Both the position numbers and the translations under genes were made by a program. DNA of 64,000 nucleotides from Nonlabens ulvanivorans (GTDB lineage Bacteria > Bacteroidota > Bacteroidia > Flavobacteriales > Flavobacteriaceae). Positions 10,069-20,172 of the stretch are shown piece by piece. The notes under the pieces were generated by a model. The model made no database searches. It saw only the letters and a program-made list of their open reading frames with translations, and was not told where the DNA came from. The stretch covers positions 1,226,193 through 1,290,192 of the forward strand of contig NZ_JPJI01000032.1 of assembly GCF_000732625.1 (NCBI RefSeq), written 5' to 3'. Position 1 is the stretch's first letter. Every line of letters starts with the position of its first letter.

Positions 10069-10924
10069 GTAATGGATAGCCACATTTGTGACAGAATTGA
10101 GCAGCATCTTGATGCTTTTTGGCTAGACAATTTTGACAGACTTGAGTATTCACATGTCTATAATTAGGGCTTTCAGATCCAAGGTTGTCACTTTTGCTTT
10201 TTAAATCTTGAGCATATTCAGCACTTACAATTCCTGTGGGTACTGCAATAATTCCGTAACCCATAATCATAATCAAGGTAGCTAGAAATTGACCTAAAGG
10301 TGTCTCTGGAGCGATATCACCAAAGCCTACGGTAGTCAATGTAACGATACACCAATAAATTGATTTAGGGATACTGTCAAAACCATGTTCTGGTCCTTCA
10401 ACAAGGTACATTAAGGTTCCAAAGATGATTGAAACTACCATGACTGCAAATAGAAAGACCGCAATCTTGGGGCCACTAGATTTTATGGCTTTACTTAATT
10501 TATCTGCTTCACCTATATATCTAGTTACTTTTAAAATTCTAAAAACTCTTAAAAGTCTCAAAGATCTTACAGCCAGTAGCGCACTGAAACCGCCAAAGAA
10601 AAAAGTAAGATACAAAGGTATGGTCGATAAGAAATCGATAATCCCGTAAAAGCTAAAAATATACTTAGTCGGTTTATTAATTGAGATGACTCTCAAAATA
10701 TACTCGATAGTGAAAAAGATGGTTACTATCCACTCTGCAGTGATAAACGGAATAGCATATTTTTCACCTAATCCAGGTATGCTCTCTAGCATTACCAGTA
10801 TTAGACTTATGACAATAAGAACTAACAATATAACATCAAACCACTTTCCAGCAGGCGTGTCTGCTTCATAAATTATTTCATGAATCTTACGTTTCCAGGC
10901 AGGTGCAGATGTCGTATTATGCAT
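10061..10924 (-). CDS. Voltage-gated-type potassium channel with C-terminal zinc ribbon
   Basis: A six-helix cation channel of 287 residues. S1 to S6 lie at about 30-47, 62-82, 88-110, 114-136, 153-175 and 210-235. The S4 segment is rich in arginine (R120 to R136, VRSLRLLRVFRILK), and the pore has the potassium filter TVGFGD (198-203). After S6 there is a short linker and then two CxxC pairs, C263/C266 and C278/C281, a zinc ribbon that ordinary bacterial Kv-like channels do not carry. The start codon overlaps the stop of the E1 dehydrogenase by one base (TAATG on the minus strand), indicating coupled translation. Ion choice is inferred from the filter; gating and the role of the ribbon are unknown. 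Confidence 0.88.
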   Translation of the reverse strand: MHNTTSAPAWKRKIHEIIYEADTPAGKWFDVILLVLIVISLILVMLESIPGLGEKYAIPFITAEWIVTIFFTIEYILRVISINKPTKYIFSFYGIIDFLSTIPLYLTFFFGGFSALLAVRSLRLLRVFRILKVTRYIGEADKLSKAIKSSGPKIAVFLFAVMVVSIIFGTLMYLVEGPEHGFDSIPKSIYWCIVTLTTVGFGDIAPETPLGQFLATLIMIMGYGIIAVPTGIVSAEYAQDLKSKSDNLGSESPNYRHVNTQVCQNCLAKKHQDAAQFCHKCGYPLHD

Positions 10925-13338
10925 TAATAATTTTTAGGATATTTTGCAGGTTGAGCTTCATTCATGATAGCATATACTTTATCAAATATATCATCTACAC
11001 TAGGTTTAGAGAAATAATCACCATCTGTACTATATGCTGGTCTATGTGCTTTTGCAGCTAGAGCTTGAGGTTTACTGTCTAGGTATCTCCATGCATTTTG
11101 TTGATCAACAATTTTTTGTAAAATAAATGCACTAGCGCCGCCAGGTACATCCTCATCGATGACTAATAGACGATTTGTTTTTTCAACGCTATCCTTAATT
11201 TCTTGATTTATATCAAAAGGTAGTAAAGATTGTACATCGATAATCTCTATGTCAATTCCAGCTCTTTCTAATTCAACTGCAGCTTCTTCTATAAGCCTTA
11301 AGGTTGACCCATAAGATACTACGGTAATATCTTTCCCTTCCTTAAGAATTTCTATTTGCCCAATAGGTGTTTTAAACTCACCTAAATTGACAGGAAGTTT
11401 TTCTTTAAGTCTATAACCGTTAAGACACTCTACAATTAGCGCAGGCTCATCACTCTCTAACATGGTATTGTAAAAACCAGCGGCTTGCGTCATGTTACGT
11501 GGCACTAAGACGTGAATACCTCTTACAGAGTTGATAATTCCTCCCATAGGTGAACCACTGTGCCATATTCCTTCTAGTCGGTGACCACGTGTTCTTATGA
11601 TAAGTGGAGCTTTTTGTCTTCCTGCCGTTCTATATTGAACAGTAGCAAGATCATCACTCATTATTTGTAAACAATAGAGTAGGTAGTCTAAATATTGAAT
11701 CTCTGCAATAGGTCGTAAGCCACGCATTGCGAGACCTATTCCTTGACCTAATATCGTCGCTTCACGTATGCCTGTGTCAGACACGCGCAGCTCACCATAT
11801 TTTTCTTGCATGCCTTCCAGCCCTTGATTTACATCACCTATCTCTCCAGCATCTTCACCAAAAATCATAGTATCTGGACGAGAGGCAAAAATAGCATCAA
11901 AGTTATCTCTCATGATTAAGCGAGCATCTACTTCTTCAGAGTCATCATTATATTCTGGTACAACAGCTTCAATTTTAGTAGCTGCCTGGGCAGATTCACT
12001 ATATAAATGACTGCTGTATTTATTTTGAATTTCTTGACTATAACCATTCAACCATTGGTTAAGAGCAGTGATAGCTTCACTATTTTCTTTTAACGTATAG
12101 CGCAATGTTTTACGCACTGTTTCAAGAATTTCTTTACGGATGGGCTCTTTAGTAGATTTAAGGTTTTCTATCATTGGTTTGATAAAAACACCATCTGCAG
12201 ACTGGTTAGCTACATTTTCTAATAAAGGAAGTACGGCATCACGCTCTTGTACAATAGGATTGATAAAAGCAGACCATGCAGCTTTCTTTCCATCTCGTAC
12301 TTGCTTTTTAATATCCTTTTCAATAGCTGATAACTCGTCATCAGTCGCAAATTCATTATCTAATAACCATTTACGGAACTGTACGTTACAATCATAAGTG
12401 CGTTCCCATTCAAGACGTTCTTCATTCTTATATCGTTCGTGAGAACCACTAGTACTATGTCCTTGTGGCTGAGTTAATTCTTGAACATGGATCAGTACTG
12501 GTACATGTTCTTCGCGAGCAATTTTGCTTGCCTTTTCATAGGTTTCTACCAGTTCTACATAATCCCAACCTTTAACGGTCATGATTTCAAAACCAGCATC
12601 TTCATGATCACGCTGGAAACCAGCTTGTATTTTAGAAATGCTTTCTTTTGTTGTCTGATGTCTAGCATGTACAGAGATACCATATTCATCATCCCATACA
12701 CTTATAACCATAGGTACTTGTAAGACACCTGCGGCATTAAAGCTTTCCCAGAAATGTCCTTCACTCGTACTTGCGTTACCTATCGTTCCCCAAGCTACTT
12801 CATTACCTTTATTTGAAAAGCCGTTATCTTCAGGAATTAAGTCATTATGTCTGTAAACCTTAGATGCTTGAGCAAGCCCCAGAAGTCTAGGCATCTGTCC
12901 AGCAGTAGGAGAGATATCTGCACTTGAGTTTTTCTGATCGATCAACCTTTTCCAGCTTCCATCTTCATTTAAACTATGCGTTGCAAAGTGTCCACCCATT
13001 TGACGACCAGCGCTCATAGGTTCTTCTTTAATATCTGTATTTGCATAAAGACCGGCAAAAAACTGTTCTATAGTTAATTCGCCTATTGCCATCATAAAAG
13101 TTTGATCACGATAATATCCACTACGGAAATCACCATTTTCAAAAGCACGTGCCCATGCTAATTGAGGAATTTCTTTTCCGTCACCAAAAATTCCAAATTT
13201 TGCTTTACCGGTAAGTACTTCACGACGTCCTAAAAGGCTACATTCACGGCTAGTTACCGCAATCTTGTAATCTTTAATCACTTCTTGTTTGAAGTCAGAT
13301 TTTACTAGTTTTTGTTCTTGGATTTCTTCTGTTTGCAT
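10924..13338 (-). CDS. Fused 2-oxoacid dehydrogenase E1 (alpha plus beta)
   Basis: At 804 residues this joins the E1 alpha part (about 1-400) and the beta part (about 470-804) of a thiamine diphosphate-dependent decarboxylase that feeds a lipoyl E2; branched-chain 2-oxoacids are the likely substrates. The beta half has IFGEDAG, the QYLDYL and RTRGHRLEGIWHSGSPMGG regions and VVSYGSTLRL. In the alpha half the thiamine/metal motif is changed: the usual GDG is G187-N188-A189 in IGNASTSEGHF, and the later NN is D216-D217 in VWDDEYGISV. No E2 or E3 gene lies nearby. A good promoter sits just upstream, and two genes follow with overlapping ends. Confidence 0.87.
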   Translation of the reverse strand: MQTEEIQEQKLVKSDFKQEVIKDYKIAVTSRECSLLGRREVLTGKAKFGIFGDGKEIPQLAWARAFENGDFRSGYYRDQTFMMAIGELTIEQFFAGLYANTDIKEEPMSAGRQMGGHFATHSLNEDGSWKRLIDQKNSSADISPTAGQMPRLLGLAQASKVYRHNDLIPEDNGFSNKGNEVAWGTIGNASTSEGHFWESFNAAGVLQVPMVISVWDDEYGISVHARHQTTKESISKIQAGFQRDHEDAGFEIMTVKGWDYVELVETYEKASKIAREEHVPVLIHVQELTQPQGHSTSGSHERYKNEERLEWERTYDCNVQFRKWLLDNEFATDDELSAIEKDIKKQVRDGKKAAWSAFINPIVQERDAVLPLLENVANQSADGVFIKPMIENLKSTKEPIRKEILETVRKTLRYTLKENSEAITALNQWLNGYSQEIQNKYSSHLYSESAQAATKIEAVVPEYNDDSEEVDARLIMRDNFDAIFASRPDTMIFGEDAGEIGDVNQGLEGMQEKYGELRVSDTGIREATILGQGIGLAMRGLRPIAEIQYLDYLLYCLQIMSDDLATVQYRTAGRQKAPLIIRTRGHRLEGIWHSGSPMGGIINSVRGIHVLVPRNMTQAAGFYNTMLESDEPALIVECLNGYRLKEKLPVNLGEFKTPIGQIEILKEGKDITVVSYGSTLRLIEEAAVELERAGIDIEIIDVQSLLPFDINQEIKDSVEKTNRLLVIDEDVPGGASAFILQKIVDQQNAWRYLDSKPQALAAKAHRPAYSTDGDYFSKPSVDDIFDKVYAIMNEAQPAKYPKNY

Positions 13339-13396: not shown

Positions 13397-16216
13397 CTAA
13401 TACCAACGCCTCGTAAACAAACCAGTAAGAGTATTTAAATCTAGTGTGAGTATAAATCTTACTCGCTGGTCATAATCGCCTTGACCTACTTCCCAGCCAT
13501 TACTACTATAAATAGGTAAGTAGACTTCAAAATAATCTTGTAATAAATTTAACCTTAAACCAGAATCATAAACGCCAGCAAGTGGAGTGTTACGGTTTTT
13601 AACCACACCTACATCTGCATATGCAAATACATATTTCCAGATACTGTATGATGTATTAACCGTGCTTATAAATTGGTTTGCGTATGGTGTTTCTAGTTGT
13701 GATTTAAAGCCACCTTCGGCAATGATAAGTTGTTGTGAGAAGAAACCACTTTCATCTGAGCGACCATAATAATTATAATCAAATAGGTAATCTGTAGGTC
13801 GGTCTAGTGCAAATGAGAAAAAGTTTCCATCATTTTGAGTCTCGTTATGTAAAAATGCACCGCTAAAAAATCTGATGTTTAATTGTCTATTGTCTTTAAA
13901 CAGTTTTCTCCACTGTGTTCTGAATGTCGCCTTACTAAATCTGCTAGAGACTTCAACGCCTGCGTTATAGCTAAAATATCTCTTAAAGTTACGATCTTGA
14001 TTATTATAGTTGATTGAGAAAACGTTATAATCGGGCTCATTAACTGGATTTGCAGGATCTCTATCCCTATCTACTAATACGTTTCTGAAGGTAAGAAATG
14101 ATCTTTTATTGCTACGCAAATCTTTAGGTCTGAAACCTAAATTAAGCCAGGCACTCGCACGACGGTACAGTAAATCATCTGCATAAGAAAAACGATTTGC
14201 AGACACGCCATAGCGCACAAAATAAATGCTCTCATCATGTTTTTCTAAATTATGTGTATAAGATAAACCGACAGATCCAATTACTTTGTTAGAGTTTAGA
14301 CCATAAATAGGTTTTATAGTATATCTGAATGGCTTAGGTAATAATGTCCCATTTGAAAATCGTGCTCCTACAGTGACTCCATCATACACATTAAATCCTA
14401 AGTCAGGCATTAAGAAAACTTGTGCTCTTTCTGGATCTTCAATGTCTTTAAAAAGTCTGAATTCAATAGGTCTATTTTGAGCAAATCCTTTTAAAGTTTT
14501 ATAGTTATCATGCATGGTAAACTCTGGTATGAGTTTTTCATAATTGAGAGAAATTCTATTGGCACGCTTTCGCGAAAGCGTAATCACAGTATCTTCTACA
14601 ACATGATCAATCCATATTTTTTCAACGATACTATCTTTATCGAGACTGTAGAGTGCTATAGGAAGATCTCGATCTGATTTGTTTTTAAGAAATACTTTTA
14701 CGGAATCACCTATTTTTTTTACTCGCTTGATTTTCCAATCCATGCGAGTGTATTTTGTAATATAATCTTTAAAGAACCAGTCGATGTCTTTAGTGTTCTT
14801 ACTTTCTAGAATAGTTTTAAAATCACTGACGTGAGATAATTTCAACTTATTTTTTTGATAAAACTCTTTAATCGTCTGGTCTACAGAATTATTGCCAGAA
14901 TAATCTTGAAGATATTTTAAGCCTATAGCAGCTTTATTGATGATTCCTAATTGTTGATTGTACTTTACCAGTGAGTCTGATCTAGTTGTGATACTTTGAT
15001 CTAGATTCAATCGAGCGGTGTTTAAGTATAAAAAGTTATACTGATCATTAAAATCTAATTGTGTGATATTGAATCCTCTTATTCCCCAAATATTACTAAG
15101 CTTACCTGCTATTTTTAAATTTGGATAATAGGTCTGGTTATATTGTTGTAATAAATAGACCATCATACCATCTTGTAGCCAGTTTTCATCTCTGGGATGT
15201 AATCTGGCACCACTTTCTAACCATTTTCTGGTCATGGCTTTAATGACTTTTATTTCATAAGTAAAGCCAGCAGGAAAAGGATTGATAAAGCTAGGTAGTG
15301 AACTTAAACCATAAACAGGATCTTCTCTATAATATCGATCTGTAATGAGCATATTAGGATATGCATATGCCCCTAATTTTTCATTCAAAAATCCAGAAAT
15401 ACGGTCAATGAATAAAGCTTTTAATTCTGGTGGTACATCACCATCTTCAATATCTGTGGTAACATTTAAATCAGGAACACCAAAGTTTTTATAACGTTGA
15501 AGATTTTGTTCAAGGTAAAGCTCTACATGGGCTAGGTGGTTGCCCTTTAATAAATAACTGTTTTTGTAATCTGTTAATCCAGAAGTTATAATAGGTGCAT
15601 TAGTCACTACTTGATGAGAAGTAGGCAGGTGCAAGGATAAAGAGTAATTTGCTAAAGCTGGATAGTAGTCGTTAATTCCTTTATGCGAGAAATATTGCCA
15701 TTCACCTTGATCAAATACTGCTGGCGTGATATACCAGTAACGCAATGCATAATTGCCTGTACTACTTTTACCATAACCTGTAAAGTCATCTTCTGGTATT
15801 ACTATATCATATTGCCAAACAATTGTTTTAGATGCGCCTGGTAATAAAGGCTCATTAAGTATTAACTCGATAATATCAACTTGATGAGGTAGCCTTTTTA
15901 TTGTAAAGTCTAAATTTGCTGTGGAAGATTTAAAGACCGTTTTACCACGATCATCTTCTGGAGCAAATTGAAATTTATTTTTAAAATCCTCGGCAAATCG
16001 ATTGGCTAGCGGTGTATCTTTAGAACTGAAAGCATGTGCCCAATCCAGCATTACTATTTTATCCCAACTCACATCGCTGTCGTTTTTTACAATCATAGAG
16101 TCTTTGATATGCAAAACATCAGACTCTGATTCTAAAGTAGCGATCATATGATGTGAGTGCTGTGCTTGTGAAATACAAGACAACATCAAAAGCAAAATAA
16201 ACGTAAGTTTTCTCAA
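13397..16216 (-). CDS. M1-peptidase-like protein without zinc site, with C-terminal beta-barrel-like region
   Basis: Signal peptide at residues 1-19 (TTG start, cleavage about SQA|QHS). Residues about 30-550 follow the layout of M1 aminopeptidases, but the zinc signature is destroyed. Where the family has HExxHxW this protein has K326-A-M-T-R-K-W332, and the glutamate 18 residues on is D349 in NWLQDG. From about 620 to the end the sequence alternates as in outer-membrane beta-barrels of the BamA/D15 type and closes with an aromatic end (RRWY). It is therefore inferred to be an outer-membrane protein with a periplasmic pseudo-peptidase domain. No chaperone or partner is recognisable nearby. 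It carries one iterated palindrome in frame (TLSRKR). Confidence 0.75.
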   Translation of the reverse strand: MRKLTFILLLMLSCISQAQHSHHMIATLESESDVLHIKDSMIVKNDSDVSWDKIVMLDWAHAFSSKDTPLANRFAEDFKNKFQFAPEDDRGKTVFKSSTANLDFTIKRLPHQVDIIELILNEPLLPGASKTIVWQYDIVIPEDDFTGYGKSSTGNYALRYWYITPAVFDQGEWQYFSHKGINDYYPALANYSLSLHLPTSHQVVTNAPIITSGLTDYKNSYLLKGNHLAHVELYLEQNLQRYKNFGVPDLNVTTDIEDGDVPPELKALFIDRISGFLNEKLGAYAYPNMLITDRYYREDPVYGLSSLPSFINPFPAGFTYEIKVIKAMTRKWLESGARLHPRDENWLQDGMMVYLLQQYNQTYYPNLKIAGKLSNIWGIRGFNITQLDFNDQYNFLYLNTARLNLDQSITTRSDSLVKYNQQLGIINKAAIGLKYLQDYSGNNSVDQTIKEFYQKNKLKLSHVSDFKTILESKNTKDIDWFFKDYITKYTRMDWKIKRVKKIGDSVKVFLKNKSDRDLPIALYSLDKDSIVEKIWIDHVVEDTVITLSRKRANRISLNYEKLIPEFTMHDNYKTLKGFAQNRPIEFRLFKDIEDPERAQVFLMPDLGFNVYDGVTVGARFSNGTLLPKPFRYTIKPIYGLNSNKVIGSVGLSYTHNLEKHDESIYFVRYGVSANRFSYADDLLYRRASAWLNLGFRPKDLRSNKRSFLTFRNVLVDRDRDPANPVNEPDYNVFSINYNNQDRNFKRYFSYNAGVEVSSRFSKATFRTQWRKLFKDNRQLNIRFFSGAFLHNETQNDGNFFSFALDRPTDYLFDYNYYGRSDESGFFSQQLIIAEGGFKSQLETPYANQFISTVNTSYSIWKYVFAYADVGVVKNRNTPLAGVYDSGLRLNLLQDYFEVYLPIYSSNGWEVGQGDYDQRVRFILTLDLNTLTGLFTRRWY
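14564..14581. repeat. Iterated palindrome acgctttcgcgaaagcgt, copy 3 (coding)
   Basis: Perfect 18-base palindrome inside the M1-like gene, read on the minus strand as TLSRKR. Confidence 0.9.
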
Positions 16217-16293: not shown

Positions 16294-16983
16294 TTAGAAG
16301 TTAGGACTTAAATCATACTTCTGATAAAACTCATTGATAATAGCAACAGCCTCATCTGATGTGTCCACAATATGTAGTAAATCGATGTCTTCAGGACTAA
16401 TAGTAAAGAACTTCTTATCTAGTGTGCCTTTAATCCAATCTAGTAATCCACTCCAGAATTCAGTTCCTACTAGAATGATAGGGAACTTACCAATCTTATT
16501 AGTTTGAATTAAGGTAATTGCTTCAAACAACTCATCTAACGTACCGAATCCTCCTGGCATTACTACAAAACCTTGAGAATATTTTACAAACATTACTTTT
16601 CTTGCAAAAAAGTAGTCAAAATCTAGACTCTTATCGTGATCGATATATGGGTTATCATGCTGTTCAAAAGGCAATGCTATATTTAAACCTACAGATGTAC
16701 CACCATTAAGGTGCGCACCTTTATTACCTGCTTCCATAATACCAGGTCCACCACCGGTGATAACACCATAGCCATTATCTACAATTTTACCAGCAATTTC
16801 TGTCGCTAGTTGATAGTATTTATTATCTGGTTTTAATCGTGCGCTACCAAAAATAGACACACATGGACCGATACGACTCATGCGCTCAAATCCCATTACA
16901 AATTCAGATAATATTTTAAAAGTAGCCCAACTGTCGTTAGTCTTCTTTTCATTCCATCCTTTTTCTCTAGCTTCTTTTCTCAT
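16294..16983 (-). CDS. LOG family protein (TIGR00730-type nucleotide phosphoribohydrolase)
   Basis: A 229-residue Rossmann-like protein with the family's two signatures: GGGPGIMEAGNKGA (about 78-91) and PGGFGT (143-148) followed by LDELFEA. Such proteins cleave nucleoside 5'-monophosphates to base and ribose phosphate; older annotations call them lysine decarboxylases, which is wrong. The length is slightly above the smallest family members because of an extra N-terminal helix. It is transcribed with the same polarity as uvrA upstream and the M1-like gene downstream, but gaps of 77-101 bases suggest separate units. Its natural substrate in bacteria is not established. Confidence 0.85.
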   Translation of the reverse strand: MRKEAREKGWNEKKTNDSWATFKILSEFVMGFERMSRIGPCVSIFGSARLKPDNKYYQLATEIAGKIVDNGYGVITGGGPGIMEAGNKGAHLNGGTSVGLNIALPFEQHDNPYIDHDKSLDFDYFFARKVMFVKYSQGFVVMPGGFGTLDELFEAITLIQTNKIGKFPIILVGTEFWSGLLDWIKGTLDKKFFTISPEDIDLLHIVDTSDEAVAIINEFYQKYDLSPNF

Positions 16984-17084: not shown

Positions 17085-19919
17085 TCACATGCCTAATTCT
17101 TTCTTCAAGAATCGTGCAGTGTGACTCGTTTTATGTTTTGCGACCTTTTCTGGTGTTCCGGTAGCGAGAATTTCTCCACCACCACGTCCACCTTCTGGAC
17201 CTACATCTATAATATGATCAGCAATTTTAATCACATCCATATTATGCTCAATAATTAGTACTGTATTTCCTTTATCGACTAATTTATTAAGAACTAGCAA
17301 TAATACTCTAATATCTTCAAAATGCAATCCTGTAGTAGGTTCATCTAGTATATAAAAAGTATTACCAGTATCTCTTTTAGATAATTCACTGGCAAGTTTA
17401 ATACGTTGCGCTTCTCCACCAGATAGAGTAGTGGATTGCTGTCCTAGCGTGATATACCCTAGACCTACATCTTTTATCGTTTTTAATTTGCGATAAATTT
17501 TAGGAATAGGTTCAAAGAAGTCTGTTGCTTCATTAATAGTCATATTAAGAACATCACTTATTGATTTTCCTTTATAACGTATTTCTAGTGTTTCCCTATT
17601 GAATCGTTTTCCCTGACAGGTCTCACAAGTGACATAAACATCAGGTAAAAAATTCATTTCTATCACACGCAATCCACCACCTTTACAGGTCTCACAACGT
17701 CCGCCCACTACATTAAAGCTAAATCTACCTGGCTTATAACCACGTATCAATGCTTCTGGAGTTTTAGCAAATAGACTTCTTATCTCGTCAAAGGTTTTAG
17801 TATAAGTTGCTGGATTGGAACGTGGTGTTCTTCCTATAGGACTTTGGTTAATGTCAATTACTTTATCTACTGCATCTAGATTTTTAATGCTTTTATAAGG
17901 TTTAGGTATTTTTACTCCATTAAAAAAATGAGCATTCATGATAGGGTAGAGCGTCTCATTAATCATGGTTGATTTACCGCTACCAGATACTCCAGTCACG
18001 ACAATCATTTTACCTAGTGGCAAATCGATGGAAACATTCTTAAGGTTATTACCGGTGCAACCTTTAAGCGATATTTTCTCACCGTTTCCTTTACGTCTTG
18101 TTTTAGGGACATCAATTTCTAGCTTACCATTCATATACTGAGCGGTAAGTGTATCATGATTAAGTATTTCTGCCGGTGTACCTTTTGAAATGATTTCTCC
18201 ACCATATTTTCCTGCCCGTGGACCTATGTCTATAACATAGTCTGCACGCTCAATCATATCTTTATCATGTTCTACAACTACCACACTGTTACCAGTGTCC
18301 CTTAAAGACTCTAGGGAATTAATTAATTTCTCATTATCTCGTTGATGTAGTCCAATACTAGGTTCATCAAGTATATATAAAACACCTACTAATTGTGAGC
18401 CTATTTGAGTAGCAAGTCTTATTCTTTGTGCCTCGCCACCTGAAAGTGATTTGGCACTACGATTTAGCGATAGATAGTCCAGTCCTACATCTAGCAGAAA
18501 TTGCAATCTAACACGTATTTCTTTTAAGAGCTCTGTGGCTATCTGTTCTTGCTTTCGCGAAAGCGTGCTTCCCAAACCATCGAACCATTCTACCAGTTCT
18601 GCGATGTCCATATTTGCTAACTGCGCGATGTTCATTTCATTAACCTTGAAATAGAGCGATTCTTTGCGCAATCGTGCTCCTTCACAAGATGGACAGTCTA
18701 TATGATCCATAAACTCTTTTGCCCAACGTTGTAGAGAGGTACTATCATTATTTGTAAAAGTCTGATCTATAAAGTTTGCAATACCTTCAAAATCTATTTT
18801 GTACTTACGTTTTACACCTAGGTCTTTAGAATTAACTTCCAAAGACTCATTACCACCATAAAGAATCATTTGAATAGCCTCTTCTGGAATTTTATTTATG
18901 GGATCAGTAAGTTTAAAATTAAACTTTTGAGCGATTAGATCCAGCTGCTTAAAAATCCAATCCTTCTTCATGGTAGGATAAGGCGCGAGACCACCTTTAG
19001 AGATTGAAATGCTGTGGTCTGGTAATATTTTATCTGGATTTACCTGGTATAATTTCCCGATACCATTACACTTTGGACAGGCACCTTTAGGTGAGTTAAA
19101 TGAGAAGTTATTAGGTTCAGGTTCTGGATAAGAGATGCCTGTTTCTGGACACATTAATGTTCTAGAGAAATAACGTCCTTCTTTATCGCCAGCTTTAACC
19201 AGCATAAGAATATCGTTCCCGTGATACATTGCTGTATTTATGGAAGCATCTAATCTTTTAATATCTTCTTCACTATCGCCAGGTACAATACGATCTATAA
19301 CTATTTCAATATCGTGTGTTTTATAACGGTCTAGCTTCATCCCTTTTTGAATGTCTAGAATGACACCATCTACACGTACTTTTACAAAACCTTGTTTTGC
19401 AATAGATTCAAACAGCTCGCGATAATGTCCTTTTCTTGAATTAATGACTGGCGCAAGAATGTTGATGCGGTCTCCTTTATATTCATCAATAATAAGGTCC
19501 CTTATTTGCTCGTCGCTATAGCTTACCATCTTCTTACCTGTGTTATAAGAATAAGCATCACTGGCTCTTGCAAAAAGCAGTCTTAAAAAGTCATAAATCT
19601 CTGTAATCGTTCCTACTGTACTACGCGGACTTTTACTGGTCGTTTTTTGTTCGATAGCGATTACTGGAGAAAGGCCATCTATTTTATCTACATCTGGACG
19701 TTCTAATCCACCTAAAAACTGGCGTGCATAGGCACTGAATGTTTCTATATAACGGCGCTGACCTTCAGCATATATAGTATCAAATGCTAGCGATGATTTA
19801 CCTGAACCAGATAAACCAGTGATCACCACTAATTGCTCACGTGGTATATCAATATCGATATTCTTAAGATTATGTGCTCTTGCACCTTTTACTTCAATAA
19901 ATTCTTGAGGTCTCGCCAT
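17085..19919 (-). CDS. uvrA: Excinuclease ABC subunit A
   Basis: The damage-recognition ATPase of nucleotide excision repair, 944 residues from the ATG at 19919 ([20 protein letters not shown]). A TTG four codons upstream is a less likely start. Both ABC modules are complete: GLSGSGKSS and [10 protein letters not shown]-loops, two LSGGEAQRI signatures and LDEPSIGLH / LDEPTTGLH Walker B motifs. The zinc module near the C-terminal half is intact (CETCKGGG and CETCQGKRF). The first module reads CPETG where E. coli has CPxC, so one of its four cysteines is replaced by threonine. One iterated palindrome is in frame as TLSRK. Confidence 0.95.
18551..18564. repeat. Iterated palindrome gctttcgcgaaagc, copy 4 (coding)
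   Basis: Perfect 14-base core inside uvrA, read as TLSRK (minus strand). The surrounding [16 protein letters not shown] has the expected family length, so the word is not an insertion. Confidence 0.9.
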
Positions 19920-20172
19920 AGTTTTTTGCAATCTTGCGAAGTTACTTAAAGCGCTTTAATATAGAGTTTAAAGTCTACTTAAAGTTATGTGATATTGTTC
20001 ATAGGATTGTTACGTTGATTAACTTGTTTAACGTACTGTTCATCCTTTTTGTATTAATTGATTTATACGGTTAAACAGACAAAATGGAAAATGGTCTAAA
20101 AAACAACTTTTTAAAAACCAAAGGAGAATTAAACACGTCTATAATATCTATTAATCTTTAAAATACGCTTTT

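Follow-up and report, generated by a model that had tools for sequence, protein, structure and literature searches.

A predicted Omp85-type barrel protein with a catalytically dead M1 peptidase module in Flavobacteriaceae

We find that a gene of Nonlabens ulvanivorans encodes an M1-peptidase-fold module that has lost its active site and is fused to a predicted Omp85-type outer-membrane barrel. The gene lies at positions 13397-16216 on the minus strand of the window, i.e., the whole stretch of 64,000 nucleotides that was analysed. We hold this architecture, which is based on structure prediction and homology, and the evolutionary history described below with high confidence. The explanation as a whole, i.e., an outer-membrane protein with an Omp85 barrel whose M1 module replaces the POTRA domains and serves non-catalytic docking, we judge to be fairly probable.

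Gene and protein layout

The open reading frame of 939 aa begins with a TTG codon at 16216 and has its stop at 13397, which is where the sequence-only reading had located it, and full-length homologues are found in Flavobacteriaceae. By the identities to the relatives L032-L039, the window genome is close to Nonlabens. We give practically no credence to the gene being a pseudogene, an assembly error or a misread frame. Such a reading could point to the TTG start and to a draft contig of Nonlabens ulvanivorans, whose copy (L039:5001-7819; best segment 94% identical) does not form one frame and shows 25 stops over the matched range. The latter frame breaks are probably draft sequencing errors, since adjacent genes are split too, and the 89%-identical relative L032 likewise uses a TTG start. 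Furthermore, the frame is open in almost every relative, is under strong purifying selection and carries residues that are invariant throughout the family, i.e., the reading is refuted by conservation.

All features listed in the following are on the minus strand. The sequence starts with a putative Sec signal peptide (residues 1-18; 16163..16216) with a probable cleavage between SQA and Q; Q19 is nearly invariant among the relatives and a conserved lipobox Cys is absent. It is followed by the catalytically dead M1-fold module (residues 19-490; 14747..16162; AF2 model and structural matches) and by residues 491-571 (14504..14746), for which the AF2 secondary structure suggests a beta-sandwich similar to M1 domain III (about 491-557) and a linker to the barrel. 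The predicted 16-strand barrel covers residues of about 598-925 (13442..14425). Strands 11 and 12 are connected by a long loop at the L6 position of Omp85 proteins (residues 792-848; 13673..13843; model and alignments), which is the most conserved stretch of the protein (DRPTDYLFDYNYYGRSxxSGxxSQQ...EGGFKS). Alignments further reveal an Omp85-like strand-13 motif Y-x-D-x-G (residues 866-870; 13607..13621) and a conserved C-terminal tail LFTRRWY (residues 933-939; 13400..13420), which the model places beyond the last strand.

The AF2 model of the full protein, like every structure discussed here a prediction, was built on 66 sequences and has a mean pLDDT of 82 and a pTM of 0.81, with pLDDT values of L6 and the C-terminal tail below 50. 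The structure prediction that the sequence-only reading had proposed as a check thus returned both an M1 fold and a barrel rather than a model lacking one of them. Its description of the barrel as of the BamA-family type holds, but the final strand does not close with RRWY: the last barrel strand ends near residue 924 and is followed by the tail, with a low-confidence helix at 927-935.

Assignment of the barrel to the Omp85 type

Modelled alone (residues 572-939), the barrel reaches a pTM of 0.72 with 15 clear strands, compared to 16 in the full model. All of the 50 best Foldseek matches of the barrel are Omp85 proteins (TamA, BamA, CdiB, Sam50 and others) with TamA on top (E 1.8e-6). Using VIA-align, we obtain Z scores of 16.9 for FhaC and 16.2 for BamA; this structural margin is modest (about 2 Z units), since TonB-dependent receptors reach up to 14.7.

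The sequence profiles separate the candidates more specifically. The barrel profile of active relatives aligned by hhalign to TamL from the same genome scores 51.5-51.8 (prob 91, 165 columns). Respective controls stay far below, i.e., at most 21.4 for ten FadL or TonB-dependent barrels of the same genome, at most 16.2 for 100 column shuffles and at most 14.4 for the reversed template. The barrels of the deepest relatives align to the Omp85 set from L6 through the final residue with a score of 47.6 (shuffles at most 13.8). The profile match is clear only with the phylum-wide profile, whereas the narrow Flavobacteriaceae barrel alignment gives a weak one (prob 1.9). A single-sequence BamA template gave no match; for that reason, the label 'BamA-type' rests on the superfamily and on TamL and not on BamA itself.

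The family and Omp85 proteins share the strand-13 pattern F/Y-x-D-x-G, and the deep-branching members terminate in the usual Omp85 C-terminal F. Residues of L6 (D809, R819, G835) and of strand 13 (D868, G870) are kept in dead as well as active members of the class. The VRGF/Y motif is important in most Omp85 proteins; it is absent from L6 of the window protein, which has EGGFKS instead. At this very column, the deep relatives L171 and L172 carry VRGY, which suggests that the barrel is homologous and the motif has diverged.

Pfam PF01103 matched neither the window protein nor any of the scanned relatives. Neither Pfam nor NCBIfam recognises the barrel or defines the family, and a PDB sequence search with both the protein and the family profile returned no relative but one chance match (E 0.38). 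No POTRA domain was seen, as residues 18-629 align to M1 peptidases; POTRA-free subfamilies exist among the accepted Omp85 proteins (PMC4104836). Based on profiles and model, we assign the barrel to the Omp85 type with TamL being nearest by profile. The M1 module occupies the position that the POTRA domains hold in BamA and TamA.

Elsewhere in the window genome, a 1239-aa ORF (L214; G000:C32:1623197-1623904) has a long N-terminal part ahead of a C-terminal Omp85-like barrel that is just below the Pfam cut-off.

An M1 fold without catalytic residues

The N-terminal module is best matched by ERAP1 (6mgq_B; Z 22.8, rmsd 3.4, 463 residues aligned by VIA-align). ERAP1, puromycin-sensitive aminopeptidase (PSA), IRAP and tricorn F3 score Z 20-23 against the module, and the M1 matches ERAP1, LTA4H and tricorn F3 together span Z 19-23. 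The M1 model of Pfam (PF01433) reports it weakly with 12.7 bits (cut-off 27.7), compared to 50-74 bits for active relatives.

The zinc site HExxH-x18-E of M1 peptidases is not present: KAMTRKW (residues 326-332; 15221..15241) takes the place of HExxHxW, and D349 (15170..15172) that of the distal Glu ligand within WMDEG, a column that by alignment holds D or G in most dead relatives. The sequence-only reading, which had claimed an M1 layout with all zinc ligands lost, is thereby borne out. It had missed that the GxMEN-type exopeptidase motif is gone as well, i.e., YGLSSLP (residues 302-308; 15293..15313) replaces the GGMEYP of active relatives. Judged from the alignments, the catalytic residues are all lost, namely the zinc ligands, the general-base Glu and the GxMEN Glu.

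This state is a property of the family. None of 110 Flavobacteriaceae homologues has HExxH, and K326, R342 and W346 are invariant among them (K in 110/110 at column 326). Column 349 is more variable (D 68, G 31, E 3, others 8). Another four copies from the diverged end of the list also lack HExxH, including both full-length copies of G049. The family search that had been proposed as a check therefore finds zinc loss and barrel fixed across Flavobacteriaceae.

We consider it very unlikely that the module is still an enzyme that uses a substituted chemistry or another metal. The invariance of K326 at the first-His column within Flavobacteriaceae and the carboxylate of D349 in 68/110 homologues would fit such an enzyme. 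However, no set of zinc ligands is left, column 349 is G in 31/110, neither the general-base Glu nor the GxMEN Glu remains, and K326 is not retained in all other dead families.

The window genome has six clear M1 genes. One of them, L207 (G000:C23:252897-253436), is an M1 domain within a 1233-aa ORF that apparently also contains membrane-spanning stretches and may be a permease-M1 fusion.

Active relatives and history of the loss

Profile searches of phylum and order identify homologues of full length (900-1150 aa) in numerous further families. Most homologues from outside Flavobacteriaceae (f1, assigned by named records) have a complete site (GGMEYP, HEVGHNWF, WMDEG) together with the same C-terminal barrel. 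Among active relatives from class and order, the two His and two Glu of the zinc site as well as Tyr and Pro of GGMEYP are found in 26/26. The impression of the sequence-only reading that the fusion is unusual does not hold up, as the same fusion with an intact site is found throughout Bacteroidia as well as in further classes of the phylum.

In a maximum-likelihood tree computed without the active-site columns, the dead proteins of the order form one clade (SH-aLRT 99), whose sister is the active L185, followed by active f67 proteins. L161 (HAMGC) represents a separate, independent loss. Tree and alignments suggest that the zinc site was lost once before Flavobacteriaceae and once elsewhere in L161; the exact branch of the loss is to be read with some care, since the SH-aLRT support comes from a quick search.

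Orthology is supported by position. In most Flavobacteriaceae, the gene order is uvrA, SLOG, M1-barrel gene and 2-oxoacid dehydrogenase E1. In the window, these neighbours are also on the minus strand: the SLOG / 'lysine decarboxylase' family gene directly upstream (16294..16983; Pfam PF03641; 79/80 relatives), uvrA as second upstream neighbour (17085..19931; 67/80) and the fused alpha/beta E1 gene downstream (10924..13338; 67/80), where the counts over 80 relatives are limited by 5-kb flanks and contig ends. The E1 gene also adjoins the active L185 and the dead L183, L186, L189 and L195. That is, active and dead proteins are found at the same chromosomal position.

Some individual loci are worth recording. 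In L158:2512-7036 and L161:643-5166, both from one related family, the M1-barrel gene forms a tandem pair with a gene for a soluble M1 protein of 524 or 573 aa with intact HEVGH; in L161, the site is intact in the soluble protein and dead in the barrel copy, which suggests a division of labour. L171:1515-7003, from a distant member of the phylum, has two adjacent M1 ORFs of 1146 and at least 705 aa, the first of which carries VRGY. L202 (G623:C33), from a genome coded f68, is a dead copy that resembles those of Flavobacteriaceae and has the complete uvrA-SLOG-E1 neighbourhood, while the copy of another f68 genome (L201) is active; contamination or misplacement may be involved.

Conservation of both domains

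A strong match (E 7e-70 or better) is found in 193 of the 199 sampled Flavobacteriaceae genomes and a weak one only in the remaining six. The gene is near-universal in Flavobacteriaceae and encodes a single-copy protein that is predicted to reside in the outer membrane, a location that follows from signal peptide and barrel. Compared to L032 and L033, the M1 part has a dN/dS of 0.03-0.06 and the barrel one of 0.03-0.04, both rough values given that synonymous sites are near saturation. L6 shows the lowest dN (0.007-0.015), and against L032 alone dN is about 0.03 for the barrel and about 0.09 for the M1 part. Within the M1 module, W59, G91, W161, R342 and W346 are invariant. The low dN/dS indicates that the dead module is maintained rather than decaying.

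These statistics bear on two other readings of the protein. According to the first, which we rate as unlikely, the barrel is a small-molecule channel or porin and the M1 module a periplasmic plug that is vestigial or structural. This would be in accordance with the dead site, with the M1 part evolving faster than the barrel and with the closeness of unrelated barrels in VIA-align (14.7 vs. 16.9). On the other hand, a vestigial domain of 470 aa is expected to shrink or vanish, while it is kept in 193/199 genomes with low dN/dS and invariant residues, and the profile similarity is specific to Omp85 and not to FadL or TonB-dependent barrels.

The second reading, somewhat less likely still, has the M1 module pass through its own barrel to the surface and act there as a receptor or adhesin, as proposed for the type Vd protein PlpD. 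PlpD shares the order of parts, i.e., an enzyme-like domain followed by an Omp85 barrel (PMC4104836). The window genome moreover encodes a candidate of this type: L215 (G000:C32:278178-278717), a 763-aa ORF that begins like a patatin (GLVLSGGGA) and matches Omp85 weakly. But passenger and barrel of PlpD are separated by a POTRA domain, for which we see no counterpart in the window protein, and an M1 module of about 470 residues that is rigid and attached via a beta-sandwich makes a poor passenger. In addition, the strongest constraint is on the barrel and L6 and not on the M1 surface (the dN values against L032 given above).

Proposed function

We return to the docking explanation. All diderm bacteria rely on Omp85 proteins to build their outer membrane, and the N-terminal modules determine what these proteins act on. 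The N- and C-termini of Omp85 barrels face the periplasm; in BamA and TamA, the periplasmic N-terminal module receives clients, while the barrel with L6 works at the membrane.

The ancestral form, surviving in most related lineages, would have been a membrane-tethered zinc aminopeptidase, and in the active lineages the M1 module may still act as an aminopeptidase tethered to the outer membrane. One ancestor of the lineages including Flavobacteriaceae then dropped both the zinc site and the site that binds N-termini, while the two domains, the gene position and the L6 region of the barrel were retained. With the barrel probably in the outer membrane and the M1 module in the periplasm, the latter could serve for docking or delivery and present a polypeptide or a partner protein to the barrel. 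As zinc chemistry and N-terminus recognition are gone in core Flavobacteriales, the module is most likely a docking surface. The sequence-only reading had suggested a dead domain held at the outer membrane as a binding platform; this idea agrees with how long the dead domain has been conserved (dN/dS of about 0.03-0.06), with the platform itself staying putative.

What the barrel does is a further step. Given its superfamily, it may help to assemble or export outer-membrane or surface proteins. Non-catalytic docking combined with such a role in outer-membrane biogenesis is plausible, and we put it forward tentatively. Several points stand against the explanation: the neighbours are DNA-repair and metabolic genes and not envelope genes, the protein is not among the named subunits of the purified F. 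johnsoniae BAM complex (PMC12611786), VIA-align sets Omp85 barrels apart from unrelated ones by a mere 2 Z units or so, EGGFKS replaces VRGF/Y, and pLDDT is low in L6 and the C-terminal tail. We further offer, as a possibility that we regard as doubtful, that the M1-Omp85 proteins form a hitherto undescribed branch of the machinery that serves outer-membrane biogenesis or export in Bacteroidota. In this branch, the aminopeptidase would handle or trim client N-termini in most lineages and provide POTRA-like non-catalytic docking in core Flavobacteriales. Near-universality in Flavobacteriaceae and intact relatives elsewhere make the protein look like an old part of an outer-membrane machine that lost its enzyme activity and kept a job.

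If true, there would be a phylum-wide branch of Omp85 in which a peptidase fold takes the usual place of the POTRA domains. As a natural experiment, the loss of catalysis with everything else kept would also reveal the essential part of the machine. F. johnsoniae is a tractable test bed, since gene depletion and outer-membrane proteomics are established there (PMC12045153, PMC12611786).

Comparison with known systems

The M1 aminopeptidases ERAP1, LTA4H and tricorn F3 have the fold of the N-terminal module in common with our protein. Unlike them, the flavobacterial protein has neither zinc ligands nor general base nor GxMEN Glu and is tethered by a predicted barrel. A dead M1 protein is known from eukaryotes: TAF2, a transcription factor without a barrel, uses a peptidase-inactive M1 fold in a protein assembly.

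We found no description of an M1-Omp85 fusion in the open-licence literature. This weakly suggests that an Omp85-type barrel with this N-terminal module, a pseudoenzyme in one large clade, is new. Heinz and Lithgow list ten Omp85 architectures, among them patatin, WD40, lipoprotein, POTRA-free and PF00149 types, with M1 not mentioned in the available text and the word 'peptidase' absent from the main text (PMC4104836). The purified BAM complex of F. johnsoniae comprises BamA, D, G, H, M and P; the M1-barrel protein is not among these subunits by names and descriptions, and 'peptidase' does not occur there either (PMC12611786).

A comparable plan is that of the 'Metallo' architecture (Heinz and Lithgow 2014), i.e., a metal-dependent enzyme domain and an Omp85 barrel. 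However, it is defined by PF00149, for which the window protein has no Pfam match at E up to 1, and is reported as conserved only at genus level (PMC4104836), whereas the M1-barrel family spans the phylum. The patatin-Omp85 protein PlpD (type Vd) also places an enzyme-fold domain N-terminal to an Omp85 barrel (PMC4104836), but it combines patatin with a POTRA domain and releases its passenger, no sign of which is seen for the M1 module of the window protein.

The TamA-like proteins of F. johnsoniae are TamL, TamL2 and TamA (PMC12045153). TamL, an Omp85 lipoprotein of Bacteroidota, and its proteobacterial counterpart TamA share the 16-strand Omp85 barrel with the window protein, whose best single profile match is the TamL encoded in its own genome. 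There are also differences: TamL carries an N-terminal lipid and POTRA domains (PMC12045153), where the window protein has an ordinary-looking Sec signal and the M1 module, and L6 of the latter is, unlike that of TamL and TamA, devoid of VRGF/Y.
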